Of a stretch of DNA of 50,309 nucleotides, positions 11,867 through 48,616 are shown piece after piece. Below the pieces are notes generated by a model that was given only the letters and a program-made list of their open reading frames with translations, did no database searches and had not been told where the DNA came from. The position numbers were made by a program, and so were the translations under genes. The stretch comes from an uncultured Sulfolobales archaeon (lineage in GTDB: Archaea > Thermoproteota > Thermoprotei_A > Sulfolobales > NBVN01), in contig CALIBI010000031.1 in the NCBI GenBank assembly GCA_938045815.1, positions 1 through 50,309 on the forward strand. Direction: 5' to 3'. Position 1 is the stretch's first letter. Every line of letters starts with the position of its first letter.

Positions 11867-12820
11867 ATGGGAAAGCCGAAAAGCAAAGAAGAACTTCTTT
11901 TTCCTACTAAAACAGCACTCATTCTAGTAATTCCCTCACTCTTTCTCTTCATATTCTTTAATATATGGCCAATAGCTTTCTCAGCTTACCTGGCTTTCAC
12001 TAACGCTAATCATATAAACATATACAACCCAGATTATCCTGCCAGACCTCTCATGTTTATAGGTTTGAGTAATTTTATGAAGCTGTTCAATGACCCGGCT
12101 TTCTACTACTCACTCTTAAAGACTTTGTTGTTCCTTGCTACATCAGTTCCATTAAAGATATTAGTTGGTGTAGGTCTCGCGTTTCTCCTCTCCACACCCC
12201 TAATTTATGGAAGGAAAATAATGAGGGGGTTGTTACTGACACCTTGGGCCATACCTGCCATATTATCTGTTATGATATGGAGAAGTGTTCTAGACCCTAG
12301 CTACGGTCCCGTGACTCAGTTTTTCTCGTTTATTGTTGGCAGACCTTTTCAGGCTGTAGGTACTATTATGAATGAGTGGGATTCTTTCTTAGTATATAAT
12401 ATCATAGAAACCTGGCTAGCTTATCCCTTCGTAATGACCGTAGTTGGTGGTGCTATATCAGGTATTCCTAAGGAGATTATCGAGGCCTCAATAGTTGATG
12501 GAGCAGGCGTATTCACTAGGACCACTAAGGTTGTTTTACCACTAATAATAAGAACCATAGCTTTCGTAGCAGTTCTTACGTCAGGTGCTTCTCTCCAGGC
12601 TTTCTTAATTCCCTTCGTACTCAACGACGGTGGTCCTATGATTAGGTTCATGGGTAAGCTAGTCAACAGTAATGATTTGCTGCTCTTGTACGGGTATCAT
12701 AGATTCATGAGAGACTATGAGTGGGGTTATGCCGCGGCTTTCTACCTCATAGTTGTTCTAATACTCTCAGTGTATGTTTACGTGTGGTTTAAGCTAGTTT
12801 TTCAGAGAGGTGGTAAGTAA
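11867..12820 (+). CDS. Sugar ABC transporter permease, MalF type
   Basis: This 317-aa inner membrane permease has about six hydrophobic helices. It carries the cytoplasmic EAA-loop signature of binding-protein-dependent permeases (EASIVDGAGVFTRTTKVVLP, around residues 206-225), which docks on the ATPase. It starts 15 nt after the binding-protein gene and is followed almost at once by the second permease, so all three are co-transcribed. MalF-type N-terminal helices and length fit a maltodextrin or related carbohydrate importer. Confidence 0.9.
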   Translation: MGKPKSKEELLFPTKTALILVIPSLFLFIFFNIWPIAFSAYLAFTNANHINIYNPDYPARPLMFIGLSNFMKLFNDPAFYYSLLKTLLFLATSVPLKILVGVGLAFLLSTPLIYGRKIMRGLLLTPWAIPAILSVMIWRSVLDPSYGPVTQFFSFIVGRPFQAVGTIMNEWDSFLVYNIIETWLAYPFVMTVVGGAISGIPKEIIEASIVDGAGVFTRTTKVVLPLIIRTIAFVAVLTSGASLQAFLIPFVLNDGGPMIRFMGKLVNSNDLLLLYGYHRFMRDYEWGYAAAFYLIVVLILSVYVYVWFKLVFQRGGK

Positions 12821-12821
12821 G

Positions 12822-13634
12822 GTGACTTCAGTTAAGTTATATCTACTCAAGCTATTTATTACTGCGGTGGGATTCTCCATAACTGCTACACTACTTTATC
12901 CTGTAGTCTATATCTTTCTTACAGCATTCTCAAAACTACCTACCATATCACTTGATGCAGCATACTTCACTCTAGACAACTTCGTGACTGTTATCAACGA
13001 TGGAGATTTCAGGAGCTCGCTATTTCTAAGCTCTCTGGTTTCCGGGGCTACAGTATTCCTAGCTTTATTATTCATAACTCCTGCAGCATACGCGTTCTCC
13101 AGATTTAGGTTTAGGGGTAAGAGTACCGCGCTATACTCTTACCTAATATTTAGTCAAGTGAGCGGGGGTTTTGGTGTGGCGTCTCTTGTTGCTCTCTTTG
13201 TTTTTCTAGGCAAACTGAATCTAGTTAATATTTACGTGCTGCCATTCCTGTATGTTTCCGGTATGGTTCCTTTCAATACCTGGCTCCTCAAAAACTATTT
13301 TGACAACATTCCTAGAGAGTTAGATGAGGCTGCGTTCGTTGATGGTAGTGGGTGGTGGACCCTAATGTTTAGGGTGGTCCTACCATCATCTAGAGCACCA
13401 ATGCTGGTGTTAGCTATCTTCGCGTTCATGGGTGCTTGGTCTGAGTTCATTCTAGCTAACTTATTCGGTTTCCAGACTCTGCCAGTCTTTATGTATAGAT
13501 ATATTGGAGCTCGTACCATTTACTGGAATATATTCGCAGCTACAGCAATACTCTACGCAGCACCTATGATAATCATGTATATGGTGGCGCAGAGATTCGT
13601 AGGAGAGGCTGTTAGGATGGGTGTTAAAGGTTAG
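12822..13634 (+). CDS. Sugar ABC transporter permease, MalG type
   Basis: This is the second permease of the same importer, about 270 aa with six hydrophobic helices and the EAA-loop motif DEAAFVDGSGWWTLMFRVVLP in two parts around residues 170-190. The frame is open from GTG 12810, overlapping malF. However, GAGGTGG at 12806-12812 is a Shine-Dalgarno site placed for GTG 12822, just after the malF stop. No ATP-binding gene follows; the operon ends here and two sRNA genes come next. An ATPase encoded elsewhere must energise the transporter, the MalK-like protein at 31028-32128 being one candidate. Confidence 0.9.
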   Translation: MTSVKLYLLKLFITAVGFSITATLLYPVVYIFLTAFSKLPTISLDAAYFTLDNFVTVINDGDFRSSLFLSSLVSGATVFLALLFITPAAYAFSRFRFRGKSTALYSYLIFSQVSGGFGVASLVALFVFLGKLNLVNIYVLPFLYVSGMVPFNTWLLKNYFDNIPRELDEAAFVDGSGWWTLMFRVVLPSSRAPMLVLAIFAFMGAWSEFILANLFGFQTLPVFMYRYIGARTIYWNIFAATAILYAAPMIIMYMVAQRFVGEAVRMGVKG

Positions 13635-13671: not shown

Positions 13672-13719
13672 TCAGAATTCCTGGGATCATCACTACTCAG
13701 CCGGTTGATCCTTCATCAC
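13672..13719 (-). ncRNA. C/D box sRNA with a guide matching the 5' end of 16S rRNA
   Basis: On the minus strand all four boxes are in order: C box GTGATGA (13713-13719), 12-nt guide AGGATCAACCGG, D' box CTGA (13697-13700), 3-nt spacer, C' box GTGATGA (13687-13693), 11-nt guide TCCCAGGAATT, D box CTGA (13672-13675). Guide lengths and the short D'-C' spacer are typical of archaeal C/D sRNAs that direct 2'-O-methylation with L7Ae, Nop5 and fibrillarin. The first guide is the exact complement of CCGGUUGAUCCU at the start of archaeal 16S rRNA. The five-nucleotide rule points to the first U of GGUUGAUCC. The second guide's target was not recognised. A TATA box sits about 25 nt upstream of the C box. 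Confidence 0.88.
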
Positions 13720-13774: not shown

Positions 13775-13784
13775 GTTTATAAGG
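13775..13784 (+). promoter_or_regulatory. TATA box for the plus-strand C/D sRNA
   Basis: GTTTATAAGG points away from the minus-strand sRNA promoter, only about 25 nt from it. Transcription would begin near 13805-13810. There CTGAAG and CTTCAG (13804-13820) can form a small hairpin just upstream of the C box. Confidence 0.5.
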
Positions 13785-13827: not shown

Positions 13828-13876
13828 GTGATGAGAGCTCCCCTTCCTGAAGCATGATGTATCCGACATCGGCTGA
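13828..13876 (+). ncRNA. C/D box sRNA with a guide matching the 23S rRNA peptidyl-transferase loop
   Basis: Four ordered boxes are present: C box GTGATGA (13828-13834), 12-nt guide GAGCTCCCCTTC, D' box CTGA (13847-13850), 4-nt spacer, C' box TGATGT (13855-13860), 12-nt guide ATCCGACATCGG, D box CTGA (13873-13876). Ten bases of the second guide are complementary to CCGAUGUCGG. That string belongs to the conserved 23S loop around E. coli positions 2500-2509. The fifth base before the D box pairs with the U equivalent to 2504, predicting 2'-O-methylation there. The first guide's target was not recognised. The gene ends directly at the stop codon of the convergent glycosyltransferase gene and is followed by a T5 run. 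Confidence 0.87.
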
Positions 13877-15199
13877 TCAGTTTTTATTAATTACGTAGAA
13901 GTCCTTCACTGCAGACACTCTGAATATCGAGGACACTTCTATTAACCAAGCTATAGGTGCTATTAGGAAGTACCTGAGCTTCCCAGACTTGTAGGCTCCG
14001 TACGCGTACGCTGACCAGTGATATAGTGAATTAATTATTATGAGGCTTGCGATGAGCACGTTATAGTAACTCTTCGTCACGATTACCGTAATCACGACTA
14101 TTACTAAAGCAACCCAGAGAAAAGATTTAACAGCTACTATAGCTCTCATAAGGTTCGGAGCACGTCTTAAGTCTTTCAAGACCCCCTTAAACCATCTAGC
14201 TCTTTGTTTCTGGAGATCGCTTAGACTATTAGGGGATTTAATACTTACTATAGTTCTTGATTGCCAAGTCTTGTAATCATTCTTAACCAACTCAATAGCT
14301 AGGCTGAAGTCTTCAGTTATTGATGCGTGATTAAAGTTTAGTTCTCTTAATACGTGACCCTTAATACCTAGTAACTCCCCGTGAAGCCCTAAAAACGGCT
14401 TCCCTAGAAAACCCGTAAAGAACCTGTAGAGAGTTAAGTCATTGAAGTATCTTATCCAGTCAATCACGTAAGCTATTGTTGAGTTACCTCTCCGAGGCTT
14501 CAATATGGGATTAAAAGCCACGTAACCAACCTCCTCATAATACGGTATCTCATACAGGAAATGATCATCCAAAACTATGTTATCATCATCTAAGAAAACA
14601 TACCAGTTATCAGGTTCTACGAAATGTTCTATGAAGTACTTCATAGCACGCGCCTTACCCTTGCAGGATCTTATGTATGTTTGAGGTACTACAACGAGTC
14701 TTAGGTAAGGATCTGAGGAACTCATACTACTTAAGTAATTCGTTAATTCCGCACCCTCATCTATAACCACCCACACTAAGTAATTTCTGAATCTCTTGCG
14801 TAAGTTCCCTAGAGATTCTTTTAAAGCATTCTTAACTTTATTATTAGCTACAGTCACGAGAACAAACTCTACGTTATAACTCTTATAAGGCTTCTTCTTA
14901 GGCTTGTAGATAACGTACCCTATAGACCCAGCTATCAAGAAAACATAAGTAACAGATAGTGTTATGTAGATTGGTATCATGAGGTATGGCTCGTTAGATA
15001 AGACATTAACACTCTCATCCATCATCAACACCTGATTCATAATGAATTCACAGGATAAAAAACTTATAATCTTCGTACTAACGTATAAGCAGGTGACTAG
15101 CATGGGTGGTAGGCAGAAAACTACTCTTTTCATGATTAGTGAGTCTAAAGAAACACGCAAAGCTAAGAGTACCGAAACACAAGAAAAAACCAAAAGCAA
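13877..15199 (-). CDS. Membrane-bound family 2 glycosyltransferase (processive/egghead-like)
   Basis: This is a 440-aa integral membrane glycosyltransferase. The N-terminal part (residues 1-98) has hydrophobic helices, the central GT-A domain spans about 105-340, and two or more helices follow to the C-terminus. The catalytic motifs of GT2 are present: DDDN (204-207), TED (295-297) and QKQRARW (330-336, the QxxRW motif). SCKGKARAMKY before the DDDN is typical of egghead-like and cellulose/hyaluronan synthase-like enzymes. It probably extends a cell-surface glycan, glycolipid or N-glycan. TTG 15199 gives the longest frame; ATG at residue 23 is the main alternative. It is transcribed away from the MscS gene through a shared 75-nt promoter region. 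Confidence 0.85.
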   Translation of the reverse strand: MLLVFSCVSVLLALRVSLDSLIMKRVVFCLPPMLVTCLYVSTKIISFLSCEFIMNQVLMMDESVNVLSNEPYLMIPIYITLSVTYVFLIAGSIGYVIYKPKKKPYKSYNVEFVLVTVANNKVKNALKESLGNLRKRFRNYLVWVVIDEGAELTNYLSSMSSSDPYLRLVVVPQTYIRSCKGKARAMKYFIEHFVEPDNWYVFLDDDNIVLDDHFLYEIPYYEEVGYVAFNPILKPRRGNSTIAYVIDWIRYFNDLTLYRFFTGFLGKPFLGLHGELLGIKGHVLRELNFNHASITEDFSLAIELVKNDYKTWQSRTIVSIKSPNSLSDLQKQRARWFKGVLKDLRRAPNLMRAIVAVKSFLWVALVIVVITVIVTKSYYNVLIASLIIINSLYHWSAYAYGAYKSGKLRYFLIAPIAWLIEVSSIFRVSAVKDFYVINKN

Positions 15200-48284: not shown

Positions 48285-48616
48285 GGGGGGCGGTGTCGGC
48301 TATAGCCCGCCTTCAGTACTACGGCGGCATGAAGCTTAACGGCCTACCCGCGCCTCGCGCGGTCCTCATCGGCGCTACTTGGCCTTGCTCCCGAGGGGAC
48401 AGCCGTTTCAACGCATCCGCCCCCATACTCAGCGGGTTACTGACACCTCGTTGCCGAAGTGTCCTCACCACCTCATCGACATCCGGGGGCGGCCGTGTCG
48501 TTTCTGTGCTGTTGCCGCGGGTCTCCCCGCACCCCTTACGGGGTCCTCGCACCGCGTGGAGGGCGGTGCTTCCTCAGGGACGTAAGCCCCGTAGCCGCCA
48601 GCCGACTCCGCCCCAG
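48285..48616 (-). ncRNA. rnpB: RNase P RNA
   Basis: This is the RNA of the tRNA 5'-processing ribozyme, about 332 nt. It is a sharp GC-rich island in AT-rich DNA, as structured RNAs are in thermophiles. The closing helix P1 is exact: GGGGCGG-A-GTCGGCT at the 5' end (48600-48614, minus strand) pairs with AGCCGAC-A-CCGCCCC at the 3' end (48287-48301). Conserved core segments appear in order: CTGAGGAAGCACCGCC (CR I), GCAACAGCACAGAAACGA (CR II/III), GAGCAAGGCCAAGTAG (CR IV) and GGCGGGCTATAGCCGA (CR V). The universal elements are in archaeal type A order. Several open frames inside are artefacts. Confidence 0.96.

Follow-up and report, generated by a model that had tools for sequence, protein, structure and literature searches.

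Does the 49-base element at positions 13828-13876 of this stretch encode a C/D box sRNA and, if so, which nucleotide would it mark for ribose methylation? The window (i.e. the whole stretch of 50,309 nucleotides that was analysed) belongs to a genome assembly of 1.52 Mb in 72 contigs, which GTDB places in the order Sulfolobales and which shares its family with Zestosphaera. Read on the plus strand, the element is GTGATGA-GAGCTCCCCTTC-CTGA-AGC-ATGATGT-ATCCGACATCGG-CTGA, and it is made up of and surrounded by the following features:

12810-13634, plus strand: ABC-transporter permease gene, the 5' neighbour of the sRNA
13672-13719, minus strand: second C/D box sRNA, GTGATGA-AGGATCAACCGG-CTGA-GTA-GTGATGA-TCCCAGGAATT-CTGA
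13776-13782, plus strand: TATA-like box (TTTATAA) that starts 52 nt ahead of the C box, a putative promoter element
13828-13834, plus strand: C box GTGATGA, the same in 4/5 orthologues (ATGATGT in relative G003)
13835-13846, plus strand: D' guide GAGCTCCCCTTC, 67-100% identical among orthologues, with candidate 23S sites at the equivalents of 738, 1703 and 2568
13847-13850, plus strand: D' box CTGA, unchanged across six orthologues
13854-13860, plus strand: C' box ATGATGT, its core TGATGT unchanged across six orthologues
13861-13872, plus strand: D guide ATCCGACATCGG, complement of 23S 2500-2509 and predicted to target U2504 (both in E. coli numbering)
13873-13876, plus strand: D box CTGA, unchanged across six orthologues, adjoining the antisense stop codon of the glycosyltransferase gene
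13877-15199, minus strand: glycosyltransferase gene, a convergent neighbour whose stop codon directly abuts the D box of the sRNA

The boxes C (RUGAUGA), D', C' and D of archaeal C/D box sRNAs are thus all present and in order, each of the two 12-nt guides lying next to its box. A strict C/D pattern matches only twice in the window (13828-13876 on the plus strand and 13672-13719 on the minus strand), and it does not occur at all in 200 dinucleotide-preserving shuffles. None of the archaeal C/D families of Rfam reaches its gathering score on the element; snoPyro_CD (RF00095) aligns over the full length of the C/D layout with 22.6 bits, short of its gathering score of 45 bits.

The second sRNA, at 13672-13719, shares the intergenic region with the first on the opposite strand and is kept in relatives G002 and G004. 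Its D' guide is a full complement, over 12 bp, of the archaeal 16S 5' end (CCGGUUGAUCCU in the 16S of relative G001), no good rRNA match was found for its D guide, and its Rfam matches (to Pyrococcus sR14 and sR20) are sub-threshold.

Orthologues of the sRNA at 13828-13876 were found in all four other genomes of the genus (BLAST, E 1e-18 to 1e-7) and, by pattern scans, in Zestosphaera, so that the element is kept as a unit in five genus members plus Zestosphaera. In three relatives the D guide shows no difference (100% identity); the figure falls to 90% for Zestosphaera and to 80% for G004, whose guide carries a mismatch at position 2 (CCGACATCAA). The 60 bases upstream of the sRNA share 32-53% identity among orthologues, and a TATA-like box starts 49-54 nt before the C box in 6/6 of them. 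Together, the conservation and the TATA-like box fit an independently transcribed gene with a putative start site of its own.

It could be argued that there is no sRNA gene here, and that the conservation stems from the convergent glycosyltransferase gene, be it from the 3' end or from the untranslated region, given that the D box directly abuts the stop codon of that gene and that the downstream flank is 67-83% identical, which is so because it is coding sequence. The conserved block, however, lies outside the glycosyltransferase coding sequence and tracks the boxes and guides, the full set of four boxes occurs in a pattern that the shuffles do not produce, and the sRNA stays in place while its 5' neighbourhood differs between relatives, which makes this explanation extremely improbable.

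A C/D box sRNA would also require its proteins, and genes for all three core components are encoded in the host genome: fibrillarin (E 8e-103), Nop5 (Nop; E 2e-75) and an L7Ae-family protein (E 2e-31). The preliminary description had proposed a C/D box sRNA at exactly 13828-13876, and this call is supported by the box anatomy, the orthologues in six genomes, the TATA-like box and the presence of the protein machinery. The element is a further archaeal C/D box sRNA, a class that is itself well known. An archaeal RNase P RNA (204 bits) was found elsewhere in the window, at 48291-48610 on the minus strand.

The D guide is complementary to the 23S rRNA of the host, in which the peptidyl-transferase loop reads ACAUCGAUGUCGGCUC and the stretch facing the guide is UCGAUGUCGG. 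The ten contiguous pairs with this loop that had been claimed beforehand come down to nine Watson-Crick pairs and one terminal G.U, as guide position 1 (the G next to the D box) faces U2500 and not a C; E. coli also has a U there. Alignment to E. coli rrlB shows that the guide spans 2500-2509 and that the base opposite guide position 5, which is paired, is U2504, i.e. precisely the position at which methylation had been predicted. The same position emerged when the guide of each orthologue was scored against the 23S of its own host: 2504 was the top column, with a summed score of 143 versus 120.5 for the next, and only 1/150 joint position shuffles of the D guides matched its score. For G003, the guide was scored against the 23S of the window's host, because the sole 23S copy found there (L038, on contig C28) resembles bacterial 23S, so that this contig is probably contamination of the MAG. 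No match equal to that with the 23S loop was found for the D guide in the 16S of relatives (the host assembly holds none) or in 30/45 tRNA loci. It seems very probable, judging from these sequence comparisons, that the D guide directs a methyl group onto U2504 in the catalytic pocket.

The runner-up site to 2504 lies in helix 1 of the 23S, whose 3' strand contains, in the host, a true ten-base match to the D guide (L001:3699-3708, CCGATGTCGGCGC); the corresponding strand in G001, G002 and G004 is CCGATGTCGACGC. The D guide might thus act mainly or also on helix 1 (CCGAUGUCGGCGC), either as a folding chaperone or through methylation. In favour of this, the pairing is an unbroken run of ten Watson-Crick pairs for the host and of nine for G001 and G002, and two-target guides as well as chaperone roles have been proposed for archaeal sRNAs (PMC4644070). 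In Zestosphaera, however, the helix-1 strand is CCGAGGCTGACGC, which does not match, and the D guide is nonetheless kept. Moreover, the guide of G004 pairs better with the 2504 loop than with helix 1, and the conservation of the helix-1 strand is already explained by its pairing with the 5' end of the 23S. The helix-1 strand was therefore rejected as the main target, and a role of the guide on helix 1, be it main or additional, is considered unlikely. Because Zestosphaera lacks the match yet keeps the guide, the match itself is probably coincidental or secondary.

Guides predicted to aim at the same nucleotide also occur in other archaea. A strict guide pattern matched 6/214 genomes of the order (0 with the reversed control), and a relaxed pattern 27/214 (reversed control 7/214). 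Most of the extra matches under the relaxed pattern represent one second sRNA family from two other family-level groups of Sulfolobales (L204-L213, L216-L217 and L219-L224), with the layout TGATGA..GCCGACATA..CTGA..C'..GGGTCGAT..CTGA. Its D' guide (GCCGACATA) aims at U2504 in the same register, while its D guide (GGGTCGAT) fits ATCGACCC, the equivalent of 2479. The second family thus shares with the window sRNA the predicted nucleotide and the register, but it uses the D' guide rather than the D guide, and outside the shared guide the two are unrelated. In all copies of the second family an A faces G2502 at guide position 3; as a matter of speculation, this mismatch may avoid pairing with the family's own D guide (GTCGAT).

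A third layout, GATGATGA-GGCCGACATCG-SCTGA, occurs among the matches listed in Diapherotrites, Micrarchaeota and one 'Euryarchaeota' MAG, and the matches listed from Bathyarchaeota and Hadesarchaea are weaker. One Bathyarchaeota MAG (DYS_1) has two near-identical CCGACATCG-CTGA elements on two contigs (L123 and L139); neither shows a clear D box, and they may be duplicated sRNAs that guide to U2504. A single genome outside the order matched the guide in a phylum-wide sample, and the form of that match suggests chance; in the scan across 84,980 species the matches listed were mostly chance bacterial ones, so that absence from that scan means nothing.

Following these comparisons, unrelated guides seem to have arrived at U2504 more than once, and such repeated targeting has been described by Dennis et al. 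at other sites (PMC4644070). The unrelated sRNAs are predicted to target the loop, which is a further point against helix 1 as the site of action. At least three unrelated C/D layouts would be involved, namely a D guide (in the Zestosphaera family), a D' guide with the position-3 mismatch (in two Sulfolobales families) and a D' guide (DPANN-type). Whether their shared target makes Um2504 a recurrent archaeal modification, arrived at by convergence through guided ribose methylation, is a tentative proposition, with the balance tipping slightly against it.

For the D' guide of the window sRNA, in which the preliminary description had recognised no target, the picture is less clear. In the 23S its candidate sites correspond to E. 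coli 738, 1703 and 2568, with the best summed column at 738; jointly over the orthologues, however, no 23S column beat the shuffles, 25/150 of which were as good. The search of the guide complements against rRNAs and tRNAs, suggested in the preliminary description as a check, points to the 23S loop as the best site for the D guide and gives candidate sites for the D' guide. Matches of the D' guide in the 16S scan, for which whole loci with their flanks were scanned, partly repeat the 23S sites. The equivalent of 2568 lies 64 nt downstream of 2504, and it is favoured because dual guides mostly target sites less than 100 nt apart (PMC7994747). The D' guide of G004 forms nine contiguous pairs there, and in the 23S of Zestosphaera the G facing guide position 9 pairs with the C of the guide. 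The D' guide may therefore direct a second contact nearby, with the 2568 equivalent as its best linked candidate. The 23S genes of G004 and Zestosphaera (L035 and L037) have A-loop insertions at E. coli 2552, which are probably introns; these sit downstream of the 2504 target and upstream of the 2568 candidate, and are absent from the 23S of the window's host.

The lack of a significant target for the D' guide raises the question of whether the boxes might be real while the guide is decayed or orphaned, such that the core proteins are bound and U2504 is not methylated in vivo. Orphan guides are common, 28% of Pyrobaculum guides being without a target (PMC7994747). On the other hand, among the unpaired-box segments the D guide shows the strongest conservation in the genus and Zestosphaera, and it fits the 23S in register, so that an sRNA without effect on U2504 appears quite unlikely.

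Taken jointly, an independently transcribed C/D sRNA, its assembly into an RNP and guided methylation of 23S U2504 form a reading of high confidence. The anatomy of the boxes, their conservation, the fit to the 23S of the host and the genes for the core proteins are shown, and transcription, assembly and methylation are inferred from them. In C/D RNPs, L7Ae, Nop5 and fibrillarin assemble on the RNA, and the ribose that they methylate lies at a distance of five bases from the D box (PMC8162545). Applied to the present locus, independent transcription would yield an sRNA some 50-60 nt long, on whose C/D and C'/D' motifs L7Ae, Nop5 and fibrillarin would assemble. The D guide would then pair with the nascent 23S at E. 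coli 2500-2509 (nine Watson-Crick pairs plus the G.U), upon which fibrillarin would methylate the 2'-OH of U2504, the nucleotide that pairs with guide base five, counted upstream from the D box.

Archaeal C/D sRNAs, as well as methylation hotspots in the peptidyl-transferase centre, are already well known. In terms of architecture, the window sRNA does not differ from the archaeal C/D sRNAs described (PMC4644070, PMC7994747), with which it has in common the C-D'-C'-D order, 12-nt guides by D and D', a length of ~50 nt, a position overlapping the border of an adjacent gene and a 23S target in the peptidyl-transferase centre. The C/D layout is likewise common to snoPyro_CD and the Pyrococcus sR families, whose guides are unrelated to those of the window sRNA. 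In the open paper texts searched, archaeal Um2504, or methylation of U2504, was not found named, but the site may already have been predicted elsewhere (for instance in the supplementary site lists of Dennis 2015 and Lui 2018).

The class of the sRNA is ordinary and its target is what is notable, the same nucleotide being predicted for unrelated guides in several archaeal lineages. In bacteria, U2504 is a pseudouridine made by RluC, a stand-alone protein enzyme. The bacterial modification thus concerns the same nucleotide, but it is an isomerisation of the base and not an RNA-guided methylation of the ribose; if the recurrent, convergent modification proposed above is real, Um2504 would correspond, in archaea, to this bacterial pseudouridine. 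U2504 is part of the lining of the peptidyl-transferase pocket, a binding site of several antibiotics, and because of that location a guided 2'-O-methyl group would bear directly on active-site tuning in thermophilic archaea.
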